This document shows, in pieces, positions 673 through 23,899 of a stretch of 64,000 nt of DNA. Under the pieces are notes generated by a model. That model was not told the origin of the DNA. It saw nothing but the letters and a program-made list of their open reading frames with translations, and searched no databases. The translations under genes and the position numbers were made by a program. The stretch lies in assembly GCF_014203015.1 (NCBI RefSeq), contig NZ_JACHIB010000014.1:1-64000 (forward strand), read 5' to 3'. How positions within the stretch are numbered: the first letter of the stretch is position 1; each line of letters begins with the position of its first letter. Origin of the DNA: Castellaniella defragrans. GTDB lineage: Bacteria; Pseudomonadota; Gammaproteobacteria; Burkholderiales; Burkholderiaceae_B.

Positions 673-3309
673 CTACGGCGCCGCGGCAAGTGACGCGACG
701 GCAGGTCCGGCCTTACGCTTCTTGGCCGTGTTCACGTTGCGCGTCTCGACCTGTCCGCGCCAGGTTTCCAGCGCCATGATGTCGGCGAGCAGTTCATCGG
801 GTTCCGGGACGGCGACACCACCCATGAGTGCCTTATCGTGCGCGTAGTTCGAGCACTTTGTCATGCCCGCGTTTACTTGCGCGTAGTCATCATCCTCAAC
901 TACAACACCGGCCAGCCGCTGCGTCTCGACACCTTTGCGGAAGCGAAGGATGACCTCTCGCAGTAGTACTTCCTCGACGGCACGTTCCCATGCCATGCGC
1001 AAGCGGAAATAGGCATCAACGGTCTGCCGTCTGTGTTCTTGCTCTTCGCCGTCCTTGTGGAGTTTGGCGATGGCTTGATGCTGGGCTTTCAGGGCGCTGA
1101 CGCGCTTGCTCGCGGTCTTTCCCTCGAATGGGAGATCGGGGTCCGCAACCCCGAAGCCCTCTGCGCGGCGGGTCAGGCTTTGGGTTGCAATCGGGACACC
1201 GGCCAACTTCGCTTCTTCGACCAGCAGGCACAGGAAATAGATGTCATGGGTAAACACCACGACCTGCCGCTGCGCTGCCTCTGCAGTCAGGCGCTTTGCC
1301 ACACGTTCACGCCGACGGTGATCGAGCGATGACACCGGATCATCGAACACGATGCCGCCCTTACCGCCACTCAGGCCGACCTCAGCAAGGAAGGAGCCGA
1401 TCGCGATCGCACGCTGCTCGCCCTCGCTCAAGATGTCACTCGGACTGCGGCTTTGTGGTAGTTCCAGCTTGAGCTTGTGCAGGGCTTTACCCCTATCCGA
1501 CCGACTCTGCAGCGAAACGCGCAACGTGCCGACACCGAGCGCCTTGAATTCGCGGTTCAGGGCGTCGGCCAGTTCCTTCGACACAACCTTCTCCGCCAGT
1601 TCCGACGCCTTTAACGAGATGGCGTTGGTCTTCACGGCAGACAGGCACTTCGTGAGCTTGGCCTGGTGGGCGAGTCGATTGACGGCGGTGACGACAGCAT
1701 CCTTGATCTGACTCAGTCTTACCCGTGCATCCAGTTCCAGGAACTGCTTCTGCAGGGTCGCACGGGCCTTTTCGTCCGAGGCCTTCTCCAAGGTCGCCGC
1801 TTCGGCATTCAGCTTGTCCGCTAAAGCCTGAAGGCGCTCGGTCGGATTGACGAGAGGCTGACTGACGTCGTCCCACTGATGCGAGATCACTGCCGCTTTG
1901 ATGGCCTCCTGGCGAGCGGCCAGGAGCGGCTCGAAAGCCTTGGCATCGGCGGCCAGTTGCGGGTCCAAGGCCTCGATTTCTCCATATGTCACGTCGTCGA
2001 GATTCAGCGTGAGAACCTGCGCAGCGAACGGCTTGTATTCCGCGTACAGGGCAACACGGCGTGCCTGGGATGTCTTCTCCGCTTCCTGTTGAATAAAGGC
2101 TTCGAAGCGCCGCAAGCGGTCGGAGCCTTCGGCAAGGGGTTGTTGGCAGAGCGGGCAAGGTGCGTCCGCGCCCAGCGCGGGGAACGATTTGTCTGGGTGG
2201 GATTCGATGGCGAACTTGCGCGCTGCCTCGAATAGTTCACGCCATGTCTCGCCGCCGGTACCCGGCAGCAGGTTCTCACCTTCCTTGAACTGCTTCGCGG
2301 CGAGGGCGGCTGCAGTCTGCGCAGTGCGATAGCTGTCTGCCAGACCTTTCAGCTTGGCGACGACAGCTTGATCCACCTGTGCGCCTTTGCTAGCCGCATT
2401 CGCTGCGATAGCTGTGATACGGCGAGCGCGCAAGCGCAGTTGCGCGGCCTTCTCCTTCGGGTTGTTCTCCTTCAGGCTCTTGTCCAGAGACGCATGTTGG
2501 GTCAGTTCCTCTGGGGTCACCGTTGCCAGCGCTTCAATCTGGGCTAGGGCCGTCTTGGCGGAAAGCGAGGCGACTAACTTGCCGACGGGTGTGTCGCCTT
2601 GCAATGGCGCAAAGGCGGACAGATCAGCGGCGGATTGGGTGTATTCAGTCTCGATCGCCGTCTTCAACTGCTTGCAGACTTTGGCCAGCCCTTCGAATAC
2701 ATCGAGCCCGTAGGGCACATAGGAGAAATCGTCCTCTCTGTCGAGGTAGGCGCGAGCGCAACGCGAGTCGAAAATCGCAAATGACGAAAGCGCTGCAGGA
2801 GCCGCTTTGCCGTGTTGCCAGTGTGCATCTTGCGCAACTCCATCGATTGCGATTTCGAACGTGGCTTCCGGAGTCCCGGCTTTGCCTGCAGGCAAGTTGG
2901 CGTTCGGATGAATAGCCTCCGTCTGATCGCGCGCACGACATGCGCGCTTGAGCACACGGGAGTACCCCGACTTGCCTGAACCGTTATCGCCATAGATGAC
3001 GGTCATTCCAGAGGCGCCGAAGGGCAGACGTTGATTCTCCGCAATCGCGTTGACGTGCCGCATGCTCTTGATGGCTCGCAGCTCAACGTGAGTTGTCGCT
3101 TGGACCGGAGCGGGAATCTGATCTGCCGTCAGCGGCTTGGGCTTGCGGTCTTTGGGATCTGGGATGCCATGTGCCGCTTTGAGTAGCGCGAAGAGGTCAT
3201 CCTGATCCTCTATCGTGAGCGTTTGCTTGGCCAGCAGGCGGGCCACCGCATCGCTCTGCCACTCAGGCAACCCCTTCGTCCAGTCCAGTATCTCCTGCAA
3301 TATCGACAT
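673..3309 (-). CDS. Large AAA ATPase with zinc-hook motif (AAA_13/RloC-like)
   Basis: An 878-residue ATPase of the SMC/Rad50-like branch. The Walker A motif GDNGSGKS is at residues 107-114. A CPLC pair at 385-388 sits in a helical middle region and resembles a zinc hook. Near the C-terminus are an ABC signature-like ILSEGEQRA and Walker B GIVFDDPVSSLDH followed by VVVFTHD. This layout matches the AAA_13 family, which includes RloC-type anticodon nucleases and many phage-defence ATPases. The start at 3309 has a good GGAGGGG ribosome site; an in-frame start 24 bases upstream is less likely. The gene lies between a RES-domain gene (208 bases upstream) and an HNH gene downstream, all on the same strand. 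No nuclease motif was recognised in it with confidence. Confidence 0.75.
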   Translation of the reverse strand: MSILQEILDWTKGLPEWQSDAVARLLAKQTLTIEDQDDLFALLKAAHGIPDPKDRKPKPLTADQIPAPVQATTHVELRAIKSMRHVNAIAENQRLPFGASGMTVIYGDNGSGKSGYSRVLKRACRARDQTEAIHPNANLPAGKAGTPEATFEIAIDGVAQDAHWQHGKAAPAALSSFAIFDSRCARAYLDREDDFSYVPYGLDVFEGLAKVCKQLKTAIETEYTQSAADLSAFAPLQGDTPVGKLVASLSAKTALAQIEALATVTPEELTQHASLDKSLKENNPKEKAAQLRLRARRITAIAANAASKGAQVDQAVVAKLKGLADSYRTAQTAAALAAKQFKEGENLLPGTGGETWRELFEAARKFAIESHPDKSFPALGADAPCPLCQQPLAEGSDRLRRFEAFIQQEAEKTSQARRVALYAEYKPFAAQVLTLNLDDVTYGEIEALDPQLAADAKAFEPLLAARQEAIKAAVISHQWDDVSQPLVNPTERLQALADKLNAEAATLEKASDEKARATLQKQFLELDARVRLSQIKDAVVTAVNRLAHQAKLTKCLSAVKTNAISLKASELAEKVVSKELADALNREFKALGVGTLRVSLQSRSDRGKALHKLKLELPQSRSPSDILSEGEQRAIAIGSFLAEVGLSGGKGGIVFDDPVSSLDHRRRERVAKRLTAEAAQRQVVVFTHDIYFLCLLVEEAKLAGVPIATQSLTRRAEGFGVADPDLPFEGKTASKRVSALKAQHQAIAKLHKDGEEQEHRRQTVDAYFRLRMAWERAVEEVLLREVILRFRKGVETQRLAGVVVEDDDYAQVNAGMTKCSNYAHDKALMGGVAVPEPDELLADIMALETWRGQVETRNVNTAKKRKAGPAVASLAAAP

Positions 3310-3516
3310 AGGCCCCTCCCGCCGTCGTGTCATTTATCGTCCAGAAGCTCTCCCGATTCGCCGCACAGGCCATGGGAGCGCTGTTGCAAACGGAAACATT
3401 ATGACCCCCCAGGGTTCCGCTGCAAGGCTCGCGCACAGTGCCTTGCGTTTCGCACCAAACCGCCACCACGCGGCATTGCCTTCTCATGCATTTGGTAGCG
3501 AGCAAAACCCTCCGCC

Positions 3517-4887
3517 CTAAGTCCGCTCAGATACGTCCATCAATTGCACCTCCGATTTCCGTATGTCATAGCTGATGCCTTTGATTTCGCAGATGACTAT
3601 GGACTGTGGGATAAGCTCCAACGTCGGATCGGTTCTTTCCAAGAAATCCCAGTCATCGTTGAGCGATGCGGGATCTTCTTTGTACCAAACCTGTGGATGG
3701 AACCATTGATCACCCTCATCATCCGTTTCGTATAGATAGGCATTTAACTCACGCCCATGTCTCTTGAAAAATCTCTTTACGAACGATGCTTTGTTGAATA
3801 GCGTGACGTTGAGCGGGCGCTTGTTTTCGGATGCTGACACCTGTGCAGAGCGGAAGATTAATCCATCCAAATTGAGCTTCGCATGGGTGGCGAGATAGTC
3901 GGATATCACTTGCGTCAACAGATAGCCATCCTCACTGTGCTCAGGGAGGACGGGCTTGGTGAGTACTCTTTCGAGTTGAGAAAGAAATTTCTGCCGCCGC
4001 GCACTTTCCAGTGATGACGCATCAAACATGCTGCGATTGATGACAGATGGAATTTGCGGCAGGCGCGTCAAGTCCAGCAATCGTATTGAACGAAGAATTT
4101 TGAATTCTGCAACCGCAACACGGCTTCCAACGGGAGGCCGTACTTCGGCAATCGCGACGTCTGGCGAATTGGCGCCGTAGAACATCGAGACGCCTCTGGC
4201 GTTCATGCGTCCCGCGCTGCCAACACTCGAAGGCGGTGGTCCCAGTTGAGCGTCTGGGTCTTCCAGCGCCTTCTCTAAGGCATCGTCGTTCTGAAAAACG
4301 CGTGCGCGAAAAAGAGTTCCCAATTCATGACCGGGGCCGACCGCGATAATCAAAGGTTCGCCTGAGGCAGTGGCATCTGTGTCCACCTTGTCGAAGACCA
4401 TCTGGAGCACTTCGAGGGCGTCTGGGTTAACAAACCTGGCGCGCGTCCGAAGACTTTCCTGCATGTCGTGCCATCGGCGATGAAGCCAGTGGTCTGCTAC
4501 ACCAGTTTTAATGAATAAGGCGTCCGCCTCTGGTGCCTGGCCATCGTATGCGTCGCGTTCCCAGATAGTCCGCACGATTCCGAATAAATCGTCGGCAAGC
4601 GCATTGGATGCGGGTTCTACCTCCTGCTGAATGACCTCCTGGAGTTCATCCCCGAGAGACGGATACCCATGATCCTCACGAAGAACATTGTCGGCAACTT
4701 GATAGTTGTCCTGGAACTCGTGGTCAAAAATCTGCGCGATTTCATATAGCTCCAAGGTCGGTGCGTTCCGTCCGCAATAGGCACACGCCACATCGGTCGT
4801 TTCGCTGGCACTTATCTTCTGGCTTAGAAACTGATTGCCGATGCATGTGCCACAGACTGCCTTTTCATCCAGATCGACTCCGCTCAA
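3517..4887 (-). CDS. RES-domain protein with N-terminal zinc ribbon
   Basis: A 456-residue protein. The N-terminus holds two CxxC pairs (Cys12/15 and Cys35/38), a zinc-ribbon arrangement like that of HEPN/RES N-terminal domains. From about residue 220 comes a RES domain with GRMN (Arg227), Tyr237 and Glu248 followed by VRPPVGS, matching the Arg-Tyr-Glu pattern of RES NAD-degrading toxins. Classical RES toxins are ~150-230 residues and pair with an Xre antitoxin; this one is much longer and no antitoxin gene is adjacent. It starts at TTG 4887 with GGAG eight bases upstream. Base composition is clearly lower in GC than the ICE backbone, which suggests separate acquisition. NAD depletion on infection is an inference. 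Confidence 0.7.
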   Translation of the reverse strand: MSGVDLDEKAVCGTCIGNQFLSQKISASETTDVACAYCGRNAPTLELYEIAQIFDHEFQDNYQVADNVLREDHGYPSLGDELQEVIQQEVEPASNALADDLFGIVRTIWERDAYDGQAPEADALFIKTGVADHWLHRRWHDMQESLRTRARFVNPDALEVLQMVFDKVDTDATASGEPLIIAVGPGHELGTLFRARVFQNDDALEKALEDPDAQLGPPPSSVGSAGRMNARGVSMFYGANSPDVAIAEVRPPVGSRVAVAEFKILRSIRLLDLTRLPQIPSVINRSMFDASSLESARRQKFLSQLERVLTKPVLPEHSEDGYLLTQVISDYLATHAKLNLDGLIFRSAQVSASENKRPLNVTLFNKASFVKRFFKRHGRELNAYLYETDDEGDQWFHPQVWYKEDPASLNDDWDFLERTDPTLELIPQSIVICEIKGISYDIRKSEVQLMDVSERT

Positions 4888-11190: not shown

Positions 11191-12222
11191 TTAGTAGCGC
11201 CCGAATTGGCCAAGTCCCGGCTGCGGCACTGCGTGAATCCAGCAACCGGGGCTTTCGCTATCGAAGAAATCTACGTGAACAGGTCCAAGATCATCTTGAA
11301 TGACTTGATACGCGTAATTGCAGTCGACCTGATTACCACGAAAAACGGAGACCGCCACCCGCTGAACTCCGGTCCCACGCATCCGCTTCAGCAGATGCCT
11401 GTCGTGCTCCCCAATTCCCCAACCGAACAGCGTCAACGCGAATCGTTGCGAAGTGAGCACCTCCCGGTACACCGTGGACAGATAGTAGCTATTCTGGATG
11501 GAGGACACCTTCTGCTGCATTGTTCCCTCGCTGACGAACAGCGGCACGACTTGCTCGCTGCGCCACGCCTGCAGGATTGCCTCCAGCAAGCCCGCTCCAG
11601 CACTATGGATCTTGAGTTCCTGTTCCACAGCGTTGCGGCATAGAGCCAAGTTTCCATGGGGATAGAACACCAATGTGTTGGTTTGCTCCCGATAGCGGTT
11701 ACGGAATCTTTGCCACGCATCATCGAAGGCGCCATTCCCGAGGAAGCAATCCTTGAACTGATGGCCATCTTCGACATTCAGGCCATAGGTCATCGTCCAG
11801 TAGACGAGCAAGTCGTAGTTCAGCGAAATGACTGTATCGAACCCCTTCAAGAACTGGTACATGCTGGGCAATCGACCACTCACCAGATCGTACTCAGGAT
11901 GCACATTGCGAACGGCTTGAATCAAACACTCTCTGACGTTCAGGTAGGCCTGATGCGTGCGCTGGTCTGGTATCTCCAGCGACTTGTTGACGTTGGACGC
12001 CTGCCAGACCAGTCGAAGGATCAGCTCAAAGTCGGATGTTCCGAAAAAGCGAAAGAGGCGATTTACATCATCGGCGAGCAATCCCGTTCGCTGGGCATGC
12101 TCCAGCAATGAGCCGTAGCCGAAGCTGGGCGAGACAGCCATGCTCGCCCCGTTGCCCAGAAGAATCGTTCCTTGTTGGTAGTTGGGCGCAATCTGCGTCC
12201 ACTGTGTGATGGGGAATGGCAT
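11191..12222 (-). CDS. SIR2-like / DUF4917-type protein
   Basis: A 343-residue protein starting at ATG 12222 behind a good GGAGG ribosome site. The motifs fit a SIR2-like NAD-binding fold: ILLGNGASMAVSPSFGYGSLL (GNGAS at 23-27), VISLNYDLLVYW (Asn135) and FYPHGNLAL (His189), with LTLFGWGIGEHDRHLL toward the C-terminus. The layout resembles the DUF4917 family. SIR2-type proteins on mobile elements often degrade NAD in phage defence, but here that is inference. It is less GC-rich than the backbone and bracketed by direct repeat copies B and C, so it looks like an inserted cassette. No partner gene is directly attached; the XRE gene lies 242 bases upstream across repeat C. Confidence 0.65.
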   Translation of the reverse strand: MPFPITQWTQIAPNYQQGTILLGNGASMAVSPSFGYGSLLEHAQRTGLLADDVNRLFRFFGTSDFELILRLVWQASNVNKSLEIPDQRTHQAYLNVRECLIQAVRNVHPEYDLVSGRLPSMYQFLKGFDTVISLNYDLLVYWTMTYGLNVEDGHQFKDCFLGNGAFDDAWQRFRNRYREQTNTLVFYPHGNLALCRNAVEQELKIHSAGAGLLEAILQAWRSEQVVPLFVSEGTMQQKVSSIQNSYYLSTVYREVLTSQRFALTLFGWGIGEHDRHLLKRMRGTGVQRVAVSVFRGNQVDCNYAYQVIQDDLGPVHVDFFDSESPGCWIHAVPQPGLGQFGRY

Positions 12223-18516: not shown

Positions 18517-20498
18517 GCGACCGCCGCGATGACGATTTCCACGTGCGCCCCAGCGCCCCGAAGAACCGGGGCAAGGGCCAGGGGCAGAGCTTCGTTTCCA
18601 AGGTGCTCAAGCAAGCTGGCAAGGCCAGTAGCGGCAAGTCGGCAGTACGCTGTTCTGGGGCTGCTGGTGGCGCCGGCCAGAGGCCCGGCTCGCGCCTGGG
18701 ACGCGGCCATACGGCGGCGCGCTTCGCGGGTGCGAAGCTGACGCCCATGTCCCGGCGCGTGACCATCAAGACGCTGCTGGTGAATCACCAGCGGGCCAGC
18801 CCGCAATCGCTCACCAAGCACCTGCGCTACATCGAGCGCGACGGTGTGGGACGCGACGGCGAGCCGGGTCAAGCCTACGGAGCGCAGACAGACGTGGCCG
18901 ACCTCGACGCCTTCAAGGAACGCTGCGCCGAAGACCGGCACCATTTCCGCTTCATCCTCGCCCCCGAGGACAGCGCGGAGCTGGAAGACCTGCGCACCTA
19001 CACGCGGCACCTCATGGGCCGCATGGAGGCCGACCTGGGCACGGGCCTCGATTGGGTGGCTGTGAACCACTGGAACACCGACAACCCGCACACGCACATC
19101 GTCGTGCGCGGGCGCGACGACACCGGCAAAGACCTCATCATCGCGGGCGATTACATCGCCGACGGCTTCCGCTACCGGGCCGCCGAGCTGGCGACCGAGT
19201 GGCTGGGGCCGCGCACCGAGCTGGAGATCCAGCAGACCTTGCAGCGCGAGGTGGAACAAGAGCGGTGGACAAGCCTGGATCGCACCTTGAAGCGCGAGGC
19301 CGGCGATGACGGCTTGGTGCATGTCGAACGGCTCAACGAACCCCCACTGCAACGCCAGCGCCTGCTGCTGATCGGCCGCCTGCAACGCTTGCAGCGCCTG
19401 GGCTTGACCGACGAGACGCAGCCCGGCACCTGGGCCGTCCAGGCCGATGCAGAAAAGACCCTGCGCGCCTTGGGCGAGCGTGGCGACATCATCCGCACGA
19501 TGCAAAGGGCCATGCGCGGCGAGCCGCGCGAGCTGGCTGTGTTCGAGCCTGGAGACGATGGCCGAACCATCCTCGGCCGCGTGGCCGCGAAGGGGCTGGC
19601 CGACGAGCTGCGCGATCGGGGCTATCTGGTCATCGACGGCGTGGACGGCAAGGCCCACTATGTCGCCCTCAACGCCCGTGACGAACTGGCGAACTATCCG
19701 ACCGGGGCCGTGGTGGAGGTGAAGGGATCGGCCGACATGCGCGCGGCCGACAGGAACATCGTCGCGCTGGCGAGCGATGGCCTGTACCGCACCGATCACC
19801 ACCTCGCCATCGCGCAGGGCCAGGCCGTCCCCGGGCGCGACCCGCAGGAGGTCGTGGCGGCCCACGTCCGCAGGCTGGAGGCCCTGCGCCGGGCGGGCAT
19901 CGTGGAGCGCCTGGCCGAAGGACTATGGAAGGTGCCGGGCGACCTGGCCGAGCAGGGCCGGCGCTACGACGCGCAGCGCATGGGCGGCGTGGCCGTGGAG
20001 CTGAAATCGCACCTGCCCATCGAACGGCAGGCGCGCGTCATCGGCGCTACTTGGCTCGATCAGCAGTTGATCGGCGGCGGCTCGGGCCTGGGCGACCTGG
20101 GCTTTGGTGGCGAGATCAGGGAGGCGCTACGTCAGCGTGCCGACTTCCTGGCCGAACAGGGGCTGGCCGAGCGGCGCGGTCAGCGCGTGCTCCTGGCGCG
20201 CAACCTGCTGGGCACGCTGCGCAACCGGGAACTGGCGCAGGCCGCCAAGGACATTGCCGCCGATACCGGCCTGGAGCATCGGCCCGTGGCCGATGGGCAG
20301 CGCGTGGCCGGCATCTACCGATGCAATGTCATGCTCGCCAGCGGGCGCTACGCGATGCTCGATGATGGCATGGGCTTCTCGCTGGTGCCGTGGAAGCCCG
20401 TGATCGAACAACGCCTCGGCCAGCAGCTTGCCGCCACGGTGCGCGGCGGCAGCGTGTCATGGGAACTGGGCCGACAGCGGGGAATGGGTATCGGATGA
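18513..20498 (+). CDS. rlxS: Relaxase with DUF3363 domain (RlxS/VirD2-like)
   Basis: A 661-residue relaxase that nicks oriT and pilots DNA in conjugation. The N-terminal VirD2-like relaxase domain contains RRVTIKTLLVNHQRASPQSLTKHLRYIERDGVGRDG and the metal-binding histidine motif NHWNTDNPHTHIVVRG (His186, His193, His195). The rest is the DUF3363 region typical of Tn4371-type ICE relaxases, ending in YRCNVMLASGRYAMLDDGMGFSLVPWKPVIEQRLGQQL. A basic, flexible stretch covers residues 1-80. It appears intact, so this decayed element might still be mobilised by another element's secretion system. No traG coupling protein gene is nearby. Confidence 0.9.
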   Translation: MSDRRDDDFHVRPSAPKNRGKGQGQSFVSKVLKQAGKASSGKSAVRCSGAAGGAGQRPGSRLGRGHTAARFAGAKLTPMSRRVTIKTLLVNHQRASPQSLTKHLRYIERDGVGRDGEPGQAYGAQTDVADLDAFKERCAEDRHHFRFILAPEDSAELEDLRTYTRHLMGRMEADLGTGLDWVAVNHWNTDNPHTHIVVRGRDDTGKDLIIAGDYIADGFRYRAAELATEWLGPRTELEIQQTLQREVEQERWTSLDRTLKREAGDDGLVHVERLNEPPLQRQRLLLIGRLQRLQRLGLTDETQPGTWAVQADAEKTLRALGERGDIIRTMQRAMRGEPRELAVFEPGDDGRTILGRVAAKGLADELRDRGYLVIDGVDGKAHYVALNARDELANYPTGAVVEVKGSADMRAADRNIVALASDGLYRTDHHLAIAQGQAVPGRDPQEVVAAHVRRLEALRRAGIVERLAEGLWKVPGDLAEQGRRYDAQRMGGVAVELKSHLPIERQARVIGATWLDQQLIGGGSGLGDLGFGGEIREALRQRADFLAEQGLAERRGQRVLLARNLLGTLRNRELAQAAKDIAADTGLEHRPVADGQRVAGIYRCNVMLASGRYAMLDDGMGFSLVPWKPVIEQRLGQQLAATVRGGSVSWELGRQRGMGIG

Positions 20499-20584: not shown

Positions 20585-20803
20585 ATGACCGTCGCCGCGA
20601 CCGCCACCCTGTCCAGCAAGTTCCAAATTTCCATCCCCAAGGCCGTGCGCGAAGAACAGCACTGGCAGGCTGGGCAGGAATTCGTCTTCATCCCCAAGGG
20701 CAAGGGGGTGCTGGTCATGCCCGTGCCTGAACTGGACCAGTTGGCCGGCATCGCCAGGGGTGCGCGCACCGGCGGCTACCGCGACCGCGAGGACCGCTAC
20801 TGA
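20585..20803 (+). CDS. vapB: VapB-type antitoxin (AbrB/MazE fold)
   Basis: A 72-residue DNA-binding antitoxin. A SpoVT/AbrB swapped-hairpin domain is visible: ATLSSKFQISIPKAVREEQHWQAGQEFVFIPKGKGVLVMPVP. The C-terminus (LAGIARGARTGGYRDREDRY) is the toxin-binding tail. It overlaps the toxin gene by one base (TGATG), the usual coupling. The AT-rich upstream stretch (20530-20570) probably carries its autoregulated promoter. Confidence 0.85.
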   Translation: MTVAATATLSSKFQISIPKAVREEQHWQAGQEFVFIPKGKGVLVMPVPELDQLAGIARGARTGGYRDREDRY

Positions 20804-21198
20804 TGGCGGCCGCGGCGCCGCCGCGCGTGGTCGATACCTCGGCCTGGATCGAATGGCTCACCGGCAGCGCGTTGGGCAAGAAACTGGGCCGGCAGATCCC
20901 GGACAAGCCGCAGTGCATCGTGCCCACCATCGTGCAACTCGAACTGTCCAAGTGGCTGGTGCGCGAACTCGGCGAGGAACAGGCCGACCAGGTGATCGCC
21001 TACACGCAGAAATGCGTCGTCGTGCCGATGGACACCACCATCGCGCTGCTGGCGGCGGACCTGCACCGCGAGCACAAGCTGGCCACCGCCGACGCCATCG
21101 TCTATGCGACGGCACGGCACCAGGGGGCAGAACTGCTCACCTGCGATGCGCACTTCAAAGGGCTGCCGGACGTGGCTCTGTTTGCCAAGAGTGCCTGA
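20803..21198 (+). CDS. vapC: VapC-type PIN-domain toxin
   Basis: A 131-residue PIN-domain ribonuclease. The acidic active-site residues are in place: Asp11 (VVDTSAWIEWL), Glu47 (VQLELSKW), Asp97 (TADAIVYATA) and Asp115 (LLTCDAHF). Paired with the AbrB-type antitoxin it forms a type II toxin-antitoxin module that would favour retention of the ICE. It lies in the cargo slot between the relaxase and the missing transfer genes. Confidence 0.9.
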   Translation: MAAAAPPRVVDTSAWIEWLTGSALGKKLGRQIPDKPQCIVPTIVQLELSKWLVRELGEEQADQVIAYTQKCVVVPMDTTIALLAADLHREHKLATADAIVYATARHQGAELLTCDAHFKGLPDVALFAKSA

Positions 21199-21277
21199 TT
21201 CGAGGCTCCATGCGAGGAATGAATTCCGCGCCGAATCATTCAGACCAGGATTGCAAGACCCGCATGCGATCCAATAA

Positions 21278-21296
21278 AATGCGAACTATTCGTATT
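21278..21296 (+). promoter_or_regulatory. Fur-box-like site
   Basis: AATGCGAACTATTCGTATT is a 19-bp near-perfect inverted repeat (AATGCGAA and TTCGTATT around CTA), the size and symmetry of a Fur box. It lies 47 bases before the sigma-factor start at 21343, as expected for an iron-regulated FecI-type gene. Confidence 0.6.
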
Positions 21297-21342
21297 GACA
21301 CTTGGCTCGCACACGTGCTCGGCCGATAACCTGGAGGGCGCC

Positions 21343-21954
21343 GTGCCGGCCGCCGAACTCGCAGCGCAGCAGATTCACACCCTGTATAGCGACCACCACG
21401 CCTGGTTGCAGGGATGGCTGCGCCGCCGGCTCGGCAATGCCGCCGACGCGGCCGACCTGGCGCACGATGCTTTCCTGCGCCTCATCATCAAGCCTGCCCC
21501 GCGCGGCTTCGACAGCCACGGCGAGGCGCGCGCCTACCTGCGCGCCATGGCCCAGGGCATGTGCGTCAACCTCTGGCACCGCCGCGAAATCGAACAAGCC
21601 TGGCTCGACAACCTGGTCGGCACCGACCCGGCCGGCTATGCCGGGCTGGAAGACGGCGTGGACTACCACTGGGGCCGCATCGTCGCCGGCGCGGCGCTGA
21701 CGACGCTGCTGGGCGTCGGTGCAGAGCTAGCCGCACCTGAGAACCGCCAGGACGGCAACCGTATCGTCATCGCTGGTCGTGACAGCGCCCAGGACAGCAT
21801 CAATCAGGTCGGCCAGGAGATGACCCGGCGCAACATGAACATCCAGCCGACTTTGACCGAGCGGCCGGGCCTGCCGGTGCGGATCATCGTCAACCGGGAT
21901 CTGGTGCTGCGACCGTACCAGCCGTTGTTCTTCAACCGGGGAGCTTCACGATGA
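21343..21954 (+). CDS. Chimera: FecI-like sigma N-terminus fused to TrbI C-terminus
   Basis: A 203-residue frame starting at GTG 21343. Residues 1 to about 88 are the region 2 part of a FecI-type ECF sigma factor (IHTLYSDHHAWLQGWLRRRLGNAADAADLAHDAFLRLI, RAYLRAMAQGMCVNLWHRREIEQAWL). From about GTDPAGYAGLEDGVDYHWGRI onward it is the C-terminal end of TrbI, with AGAALTTLLGVGAELAAPE and IIVNRDLVLRPYQPLFF. Sigma region 4 and about three quarters of TrbI are absent. The join lies near 21601-21622 and keeps the reading frame. It most likely arose by a deletion that removed the rest of fecI, further cargo, traG and the trb genes. Neither function should survive intact. It overlaps the DUF2274 gene by four bases, as trbI does. 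Confidence 0.85.
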   Translation: MPAAELAAQQIHTLYSDHHAWLQGWLRRRLGNAADAADLAHDAFLRLIIKPAPRGFDSHGEARAYLRAMAQGMCVNLWHRREIEQAWLDNLVGTDPAGYAGLEDGVDYHWGRIVAGAALTTLLGVGAELAAPENRQDGNRIVIAGRDSAQDSINQVGQEMTRRNMNIQPTLTERPGLPVRIIVNRDLVLRPYQPLFFNRGASR

Positions 21955-22193
21955 CGACGCGCAAGCTGCGGCTCGGGCCGCTGCCGAAGATGGAATCCAC
22001 GAAGCTGACCTTTGCCTGCCCGGCCAGCCTGAAAGCCGACCTCGACCGCTACGCCGCGCTGCACGCGCAGACCTATGGCGAAATGGTCGATGCGGCGACG
22101 CTGATTCCGCACATGCTCGAAGCCTTCATGGCCGGGGATCGTGGATTCAAGAAAGGAACGACGGCCAAGGCGGTGCCACCGAAGCAGCCTTGA
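21951..22193 (+). CDS. DUF2274 domain protein
   Basis: An 80-residue protein overlapping the TrbI tail by four bases (ATGA). The block LRLGPLPKMESTKLTFACPASLKADLDRYAALHAQTYGEMVDAATLIPHMLEAFMAGDRGFKK matches DUF2274, a small ribbon-helix-helix-like protein that regularly closes the trb operon. It is intact and marks the right end of the ICE coding region. A strong terminator follows. Confidence 0.9.
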   Translation: MTTRKLRLGPLPKMESTKLTFACPASLKADLDRYAALHAQTYGEMVDAATLIPHMLEAFMAGDRGFKKGTTAKAVPPKQP

Positions 22194-22226
22194 TGATGCG
22201 GATGCTTCCGCCGCTATCGACCGCCA

Positions 22227-22260
22227 CGAAAGCGCAGCCCACGGGTTGCGCTTTCGTTTT
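22227..22260 (+). terminator. Rho-independent terminator closing the ICE
   Basis: CGAAAGCGCAGCCC pairs with GGGTTGCGCTTTCG (about 13 pairs with one G-U) over a tiny loop, followed by TTTT, 34 bases after the DUF2274 stop. Typical intrinsic terminator. Confidence 0.85.
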
Positions 22261-22466
22261 GGGGCGTGAACGCCACAGGCCGGGCTATGATGAAGTTGCG
22301 ACCTTGCCCGCTGCGGTGCCCTTGGGCTTTCCACCGCGAAGCGCCTATGTGGCACCTGGCTCAAAAAGCGGCAACGGCACGCGGAGGCCGAAATTTAGCC
22401 TAACCTATTGCCCCGTAAGACCTTCTGCACCGCTGTCCGGCCGCACAAAGAACTTGACAGCGGACA

Positions 22467-22474
22467 TTTTTCAT
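22467..22474 (+). other. attR of the ICE (TTTTTCAT)
   Basis: TTTTTCAT is the 8-bp target/attachment sequence known for Tn4371-family ICEs. It sits between the last ICE gene with its terminator and the first chromosomal gene, exactly where attR is expected. The matching attL would lie left of the window. Confidence 0.75.
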
Positions 22475-22498
22475 TCACGGGACCACGGGACACGCATC

Positions 22499-23899
22499 AT
22501 GAGCGCACTCCAGGACGCGCGCCTGCGGCTGGTGATGTTCCTCGTCACCGGCGCCATGTTCATGGAGGTGCTGGACGGCAACATCATCGCCACCGCCCTG
22601 CCGGACATGAGCCGCTCCTTCGGCATCGACGCGGTCCGGCTGAACGTCGCCATCAGCGCCTACCTGCTGGCGCTGGGCGCCTTCATTCCGGTGAGCGGCT
22701 GGATGACCGACCGCTACGGGCCGCGCCGGGTCTTCGCCTGCGCCATCGCGGGCTTCACACTGACCTCGCTGGGCTGCGGCCTGGTCGAAAACCTGCACGC
22801 TTTCGTCGTCCTGCGCGTGCTGCAGGGCGCCAGCGGCGCGCTGATGGTGCCCGTGGGCCGACTGCTGGTGCTGCGCCATACGCCGCAGGAGCGCCGCATG
22901 GCGGCGATGTCCAACCTGGTCTGGCCGGCGCTGGTGGCGCCGGTGATCGCGCCGCCGCTGGGCGGCTTCATCGCCAGCCATCTCGACTGGCACTGGATCT
23001 TCTTCCTCAACGTGCCGCTGGGCATCCTGGGCTTCGTCCTGGCGCTCTGGCTGATCCCGCCGCTGGAACCGGCGCCGCGCCGGCCCTTCGACTGGACCGG
23101 CTTCGCCCTGTGCGGCCTGGGCATCTTCGCACTGCTCGGCGCGCTGGAACGGCTGGCGGCCACGATCGACCCGGCCGGCCTCGCCCTGCTGGCCGGCGGC
23201 GCCGTCCTGGCGGCGGCCGCGCTGCGGCACCTGCGCCGCGCGGTCGCGCCGATGCTGAGCCTGGCCCCCCTGCGCATCGCCACGTTCCGGGTGGTGGCGA
23301 TCGGCGGCTCGGTCACGCGGATGGCGATCGGCAGCCTGCCCTTCCTGCTGCCGCTCATGTTCCAGCTCGGCTTCGGCATGAACGCCTTCGAGGCGGGCCT
23401 GTTGCTGCTGGTGGTCTTCGCCGGCAACCTGGGGATGAAGGCGGTGACCACGCCCATCCTGCGCCGTTTCGGCTACCGCCCGGTGATGCTGTGGAACGGG
23501 CTGCTGGCGGCGGCCAGCCTGGCCGCCTGCGCGCTGCTGACGCCGTCCATGCCGCTGCCGCTGCTGCTGCCCATCCTGTTCGTCCACGGCATGGCCCGCT
23601 CGATGCAGTTCACCTGCCTGGGGACGCTTGCCTTCGCCGACGTGCCCGAGGCGCGCATGGCCGATGCCAACGGGCTGTTCAACGTCGTCTCGCAGCTCGG
23701 CATGGCCGCGGGCATCACCCTGGGCGCCCTGGCGGTACGCCTGGGCGAGGCGCTGGCCGGCGCGCTGGACATCGCCGGACAGGCATTTCCCTATCGGGTC
23801 GCGTTCATGATCGCGGCCGGGATCGCCCTGGCCGGGCTGCTCGACACGGTGCGGCTGCCCAAGGGTGCCGGCGACCACTTCGTGGCGCGGCCCCGGTAG
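22499..23899 (+). CDS. MFS exporter, DHA2 (EmrB/QacA)-type
   Basis: A 466-residue inner-membrane exporter starting at ATG 22499. The start LVMFLVTGAMFMEVLDGNIIATALPDMSRSFG is the hallmark of the 14-TM DHA2 multidrug family, and motif A appears as GWMTDRYGPRRVF. Hydrophobic segments fill nearly the whole protein. Substrate is unknown; drugs or metabolites exported by proton antiport are usual. The ICE attachment site lies only 24 bases before the start codon, so the native promoter has probably been displaced. No strong ribosome site is seen. Longer upstream frames run into ICE sequence and are not real. Confidence 0.85.
   Translation: MSALQDARLRLVMFLVTGAMFMEVLDGNIIATALPDMSRSFGIDAVRLNVAISAYLLALGAFIPVSGWMTDRYGPRRVFACAIAGFTLTSLGCGLVENLHAFVVLRVLQGASGALMVPVGRLLVLRHTPQERRMAAMSNLVWPALVAPVIAPPLGGFIASHLDWHWIFFLNVPLGILGFVLALWLIPPLEPAPRRPFDWTGFALCGLGIFALLGALERLAATIDPAGLALLAGGAVLAAAALRHLRRAVAPMLSLAPLRIATFRVVAIGGSVTRMAIGSLPFLLPLMFQLGFGMNAFEAGLLLLVVFAGNLGMKAVTTPILRRFGYRPVMLWNGLLAAASLAACALLTPSMPLPLLLPILFVHGMARSMQFTCLGTLAFADVPEARMADANGLFNVVSQLGMAAGITLGALAVRLGEALAGALDIAGQAFPYRVAFMIAAGIALAGLLDTVRLPKGAGDHFVARPR

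Follow-up and report, generated by a model that had tools for sequence, protein, structure and literature searches.

In-frame joining of a fecI-type sigma factor gene to the end of trbI in a probable ICE remnant of Castellaniella defragrans, and the deletion very probably behind it

The locus and the fused frame

The window, i.e. the whole 64,000-base stretch of DNA analysed here, comprises bases 1-64000 of contig C14 in a draft genome of Castellaniella defragrans (3.94 Mb, 45 contigs). From its relaxase gene onwards it carries the following features.

18531-20498, + strand: rlxS-type relaxase gene with DUF3363, the last intact backbone gene before the cargo (NCBIfam relax_RlxS, E 9.2e-197, profile positions 1-651 of 654; Pfam DUF3363, E 1.3e-147).
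20585-20803, + strand: AbrB/MazE-type antitoxin gene, the start of the cargo (Pfam MazE_antitoxin, E 4.4e-7).
20803-21198, + strand: PIN/VapC-type toxin partner, also cargo (Pfam PIN, E 1.1e-19; NCBIfam VapC below cut-off).
21251-21280, + strand: sigma-70-like promoter, TTGCAA-18-TAAAAT (one found in 21150-22600, against a shuffle mean of 0.2).
21278-21296, + strand: Fur-box-like palindrome AATGCGAACTATTCGTATT, which overlaps the -10 hexamer and precedes the start codon by 65 nt (12 of 19 positions agree with one register of a Fur consensus).
21343-21616, + strand: 5' part of fecI, which encodes an ECF sigma factor of the iron type; region 2 is retained and region 4 lost (putative GTG start; Sigma70_r2 and column counts in 29 relatives).
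21603-21610, strand not applicable: 8-bp stretch GCTCGACA, common to fecI and trbI at the join (column counts; near-identity continues to 21616, 14 bp).
21603-21954, + strand: 3' end of trbI, continuing the fecI frame and made up of the last ~117 codons out of ~426 (Pfam TrbI profile; reference TrbI of 426 aa, with LDN at residue 311).
21951-22193, + strand: DUF2274 gene overlapping the trbI stop (Pfam DUF2274, E 6.6e-24; identical overlap in two annotated plasmids).
22467-22474, + strand: attachment-site copy TTTTTCAT, the trb-side ICE end just after DUF2274 (single TTTTTYAT match in the 64-kb window).

The start of rlxS was estimated from the profile match, and the relax_RlxS score of 655.7 bits is under that model's cut-off of 850. 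The frame at 21343-21954 (+) is open over 204 codons including the stop, and Pfam places two domains in it, i.e. Sigma70_r2 at residues 14-81 (profile positions 1-68 of 71, E 9.6e-10) and TrbI at residues 89-189 (profile positions 82-188 of 188), with no third domain at E 0.01 and no region-4 family among the matches at that threshold. The FecI models of NCBIfam match residues 4-92 only; other ECF models extend to residues 94-127, none past about mid-profile, and the general ECF model, although stretched to residue 127, reaches only profile position 86 of 165. The TrbI part aligned with TraF of PDB 3jqo over positions 105-217 of 227. As a member of the FecI type, the frame has region 2 and lacks region 4, with the FecI models ending by residue 92; as a member of the TrbI/VirB10 type, its C-terminal domain is incomplete. 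The fused product is thus without sigma region 4 and without the first part of the TrbI domain, a domain that in intact proteins works outside the cytoplasm. A first-pass annotation, made from the letters of the window, had described FecI region 2 running directly into TrbI C-terminal sequence with no stop or frameshift, and the open frame with its two domains bears this out. Its further statements, that the product retains region 2 and has no region 4 and that the trbI-DUF2274 overlap is the normal one, agree respectively with the limits of the Pfam and NCBIfam profiles and with the arrangement of annotated intact ICEs.

The breakpoint and the search for the fused frame elsewhere

The join was compared base by base with 29 FecI relatives, i.e. 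every locus but the window's own in a search of 268 family genomes, and with 88 TrbI rows, made up of 79 genome-collection loci (the best 79 of 515), 6 loci from 5 other genomes of the genus, the copy on contig C21 of the same genome and two plasmids. At 21601 and 21602 the window matches all 29 FecI relatives and none of the 88 TrbI rows, and at 21620 it matches none of the former and all of the latter. The exchange from fecI to trbI is located within 21603-21616, where the two genes have GCTCGACA in common. When the closest FecI relative was joined at random to one reference trbI, a fraction of 0.00049 (~1 in 2000) of 200,000 such joins shared at least 8 bp. Counted from 21601, identity of the FecI relatives to the window extends to 21610 in six of the 29, to 21608 in three and only to 21605 in the remaining 20, so that the true length shared by the parent sequences is uncertain. 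The alignment against fecI and trbI relatives that the first-pass annotation had suggested therefore gives a sharp switch at the level of single bases; the join that it had put near 21601-21622 is confirmed and narrowed, and its proposal of recombination at a short shared sequence is strengthened by the 8 bp at the join and the low frequency with which such a stretch arises by chance.

If the frame were a conserved gene of many ICEs, rather than a chimera confined to one genome, both halves should recur together. Among 1483 matching plasmid records, none had a single place covering 80% of the protein; in the genome collection none of the best 79 of 515 relatives matches the fused protein before residue 47; and the viral collection gave two loci, each matching one half only. 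A DNA probe of 181 bases spanning the join was searched in 399 genomes of the order, of which 80 matched. The window aside, the strong TrbI matches (E 1e-20 or better) begin at probe bases 56-65, base 64 being position 21603, the two better fecI matches stop at probe base 77, i.e. 21616, and no strong match other than the window's own contains both halves. What can be set on the side of a conserved gene is nothing convincing, i.e. eight short matches that cross the join and look like chance, with E 1.7e-4 to 8e-4 over 30-51 probe bases (G495, G034, G496 and G647 are examples). A literature search, at the level of titles and abstract openings, gave no description of such a fusion. We assign a conserved gene next to no probability; the earlier reading of a chimera withstood this comparison, as the whole frame was not found as one protein in the plasmids, in the genomes of the order or among the best 79 of 515 collection loci.

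An assembly error between two mobile elements would also bring unrelated halves together, and a draft of 45 contigs containing two ICEs offers some opportunity for it. The second ICE, on C21, looks complete, with int, rlxS, traG, trbB, trbE, trbI and DUF2274 present, and the genome has its single traG match on this contig. The window fecI has no second match in the genome at E 1e-8. The longest exact stretch shared with C21 is 14 bp for the fecI part (21343-21602) and 44 bp for 21603-22193, the latter inside trbI at 21778-21821, and the longest exact match crossing 21602|21603 is 11 bp. As these stretches are short, misjoining at the breakpoint appears unlikely. At the join the two halves have no more than 8-14 bp in common, and a near-identical copy of either half was not found elsewhere in the genome; we regard an assembly error as highly improbable.

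The element, its loss and its insertion site

In the annotated plasmids the genes lie on one strand in the order rlxS, cargo, traG, a CopG-type gene, trbB, C, D, E, J, L, F, G, I and DUF2274. The order and strand in the window (rlxS, cargo, trbI end, DUF2274, attachment site) are those of intact ICEs minus the middle, and between fecI and DUF2274 only the tail of trbI remains of the TraG/Trb transfer set. This fits the large ICE deletion that had been proposed on first inspection. We compared 40 stretches downstream of rlxS matches, which represent part of those matches and include the C21 ICE and one stretch of only 3.9 kb. A full-length traG is present in 31 of them, a partial one in 4 and none in 5, and the layout of such elements is therefore not uniform. 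The distance from the traG start to the equivalent of the breakpoint was 11,694-11,780 bp in all 15 measurable references, of which 2 are plasmids and 13 belong to the set of 40 stretches; for the C21 sister ICE it was 11,718 bp. On these distances, ~11.7 kb is the minimum loss, to which the remainder of fecI and further cargo, if any, must be added, and the earlier estimate, that ~10 kb or more of genes normally separate the two halves, is already reached by the lost backbone alone.

The origin of the fecI part is less direct. No match at E 1e-8 occurs in any of the nine other genomes of the genus, as would be expected if fecI is a foreign gene. Its region 2 has up to ~83% protein identity to relatives. 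From its position, we infer that fecI was cargo of this same ICE. None of the 40 cargo stretches, one of which belongs to the C21 ICE, contains a fecI relative, and the 12 surroundings fetched for FecI relatives gave no match to any of 11 further proteins from the window's ICE or its cargo. The gene could also have been truncated before the deletion. The fec genes on Klebsiella and Rahnella plasmids were rejected as a source, being too distant at 59-65% protein identity.

The backbone genes found are int (on contig C19, split), RepA, ParA, a TraF-like peptidase and the RlxS relaxase. A TTTTTYAT-type site is given as the known site of Tn4371-family ICEs in PMC2789088. A single TTTTTYAT match in 64 kb is not unusual by chance, with one or more matches in 32 of 100 shuffles. 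A second TTTTTCAT copy lies at 3294-3301 of C19 on the other strand, between the end of one host gene and int. The int gene (L231:1941-3115) runs towards the contig end and is broken into two overlapping frames, both with 67% identity to the C21 integrase. On the window side, a second host gene lies 3' of the TTTTTCAT copy with one MFS gene between. We take these host genes, from their sequences and comparison, to be rne on C19 and accD in the window; the two adjoin each other in G006 and G008. Given a TTTTTCAT copy at each inferred end and the adjacency of rne and accD in those genomes, a single insertion flanked by C19 and C14 is most likely, although an assembly gap separates the two contigs; direct repeats of 8 bp, of the TTTTTCAT type, would bound the element on both sides. 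The element is probably a decaying, no longer working remnant of a Tn4371-family ICE.

Taken together, a one-off deletion by short homology in this decaying ICE very probably fused fecI to trbI. A Tn4371-family ICE would have inserted at TTTTTCAT between rne and accD, carrying after rlxS a cargo of the MazE/VapC-type pair and a fecI-type gene. A single deletion, between GCTCGACA in fecI and the same stretch in trbI (near-identity over 14 bp), would then have removed the rest of fecI, further cargo if any, traG, the genes from trbB to trbG, and trbI up to about codon 310, a loss that replication slippage or short-homology end joining would produce. That the join is in frame would be chance, and the start signals of fecI would now read through the trbI tail into DUF2274. 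That one event accounts for the whole loss is inferred from the join and the gene order.

Several further observations concern the insertion site. The gene between the ICE end and accD (22499-23899) encodes an MdtD/DHA2-like MFS transporter, with matches at E 1e-60 in six of the nine other genomes of the genus at 40-44% identity. In G001 (L130:3428-4474), DNA related to the C19 integrase adjoins accD, and ICEs may have targeted the space between rne and accD repeatedly in the genus. A ~150-bp stretch in G002 (L127:11834-11982), on the opposite strand and just after rne, is 71% like window 22326-22474; the 17 kb fetched around it contain other genes and no matching ICE gene, and it is possibly the scar of an ICE end. 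No RNA family matched 22326-22474. The two contigs start alike, as bases 1-100 of the window and of L231 each contain a stretch of the GGGGGTCA type, with 80% similarity over 56 bp; an insertion sequence may have interrupted the assembly here, leaving its ends on both contigs.

Expression, function and comparison with known systems

The first register of the Fur consensus gave 8 of 19 agreeing positions at 21278-21296, and the 12 of 19 followed a three-base shift chosen post hoc. Scores of at least 12 of 19 are reached at 10 of 127,964 window positions, two of which are the AATGCGAACTATTCGTATT palindrome on each strand. In all 29 FecI relatives, which are not independent and have AT-rich promoters, the best Fur-like 19-mer (11-15 of 19; 280 nt scanned) lies 52-84 nt before the equivalent codon. 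Since the register was changed after the first result, this shared position is better evidence than the 12 of 19. A Fur site in the -10 region is likewise described for E. coli fecI in PMC9249621, and Fur control of transcription at 21278-21296 is plausible.

These sites would favour a functional fused gene, transcribed from the surviving promoter under Fur, either because region 2 binds RNA polymerase or because DUF2274 becomes iron-controlled, and so would the intact frame and the retained DUF2274 overlap. Against such a role, region 4, to which FecR binds according to PMC9249621, is missing, and of the TrbI domain only profile positions 82-188 of 188 are left. FecR has a single match in the genome, on C11, where a weak ECF-like match (29%, E 0.02) lies about 0.5 kb before it, and fecR is not adjacent to the fusion. 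A second genome with the frame was not found in the collections searched, and an in-frame join is expected in one of three cases, with no need for selection. Lacking region 4 of the sigma factor and the start of the TrbI domain, the product is probably inert, and we consider a role very unlikely. A more elaborate scheme, in which region 2 of a Fur-controlled fusion would contact RNA polymerase, DUF2274 would be switched on at low iron and the element would hitchhike on transfer of the C21 ICE, is judged from sequence to be very unlikely; the element retains rlxS and has lost its own traG and trb genes.

The one-off deletion is, on the best reading, ordinary in kind. The element resembles Tn4371-family ICEs in its backbone genes and their order, its rlxS relaxase, its trbI-DUF2274 end, its TTTTTCAT ends and the tyrosine integrase on the other side, but is without traG, trbB-G and most of trbI, and its integrase is in two frames. 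Its sigma factor part has the region 2 of FecI-type iron ECF sigma factors and a Fur-box-like site over the promoter, whereas a TrbI tail takes the place of region 4. In PMC2789088, one strain without a trbI amplicon is noted as a possible case of a deleted gene or truncated element. In another ICE remnant, at L201:1268-5500, traG residues 388-543 are followed by the end of TrbI and a DUF2274 that is split; an independent internal deletion apparently produced it. Like the element in the window, it has lost most of the traG-to-trbI block and kept the element end; unlike it, it breaks elsewhere (traG residues 388-543, TrbI tail residues 99-116 of 116) and has no fecI.

The locus thus offers a readable example of how an ICE may lose its transfer genes, with at least ~11.7 kb deleted at 8-14 bp of shared sequence and a chance fusion of a cargo gene to a transfer gene. 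It also calls for caution in annotation, as a protein in which a sigma factor domain and a TrbI domain occur together need not be a natural combination of the two. Should the surviving promoter be active, the locus would show how a deletion can bring a leftover ICE gene under the iron control of the host. The window contains candidate defence cargo as well (673-4887 and 11191-12222), i.e. an AAA_13 ATPase matching PADLOC PDC-S06 (E 1.6e-223), beside it a RES-domain protein whose N-terminus is of the HEPN type (below cut-off), and a DUF4917 protein that matches PDC-S21 (E 2.3e-127).
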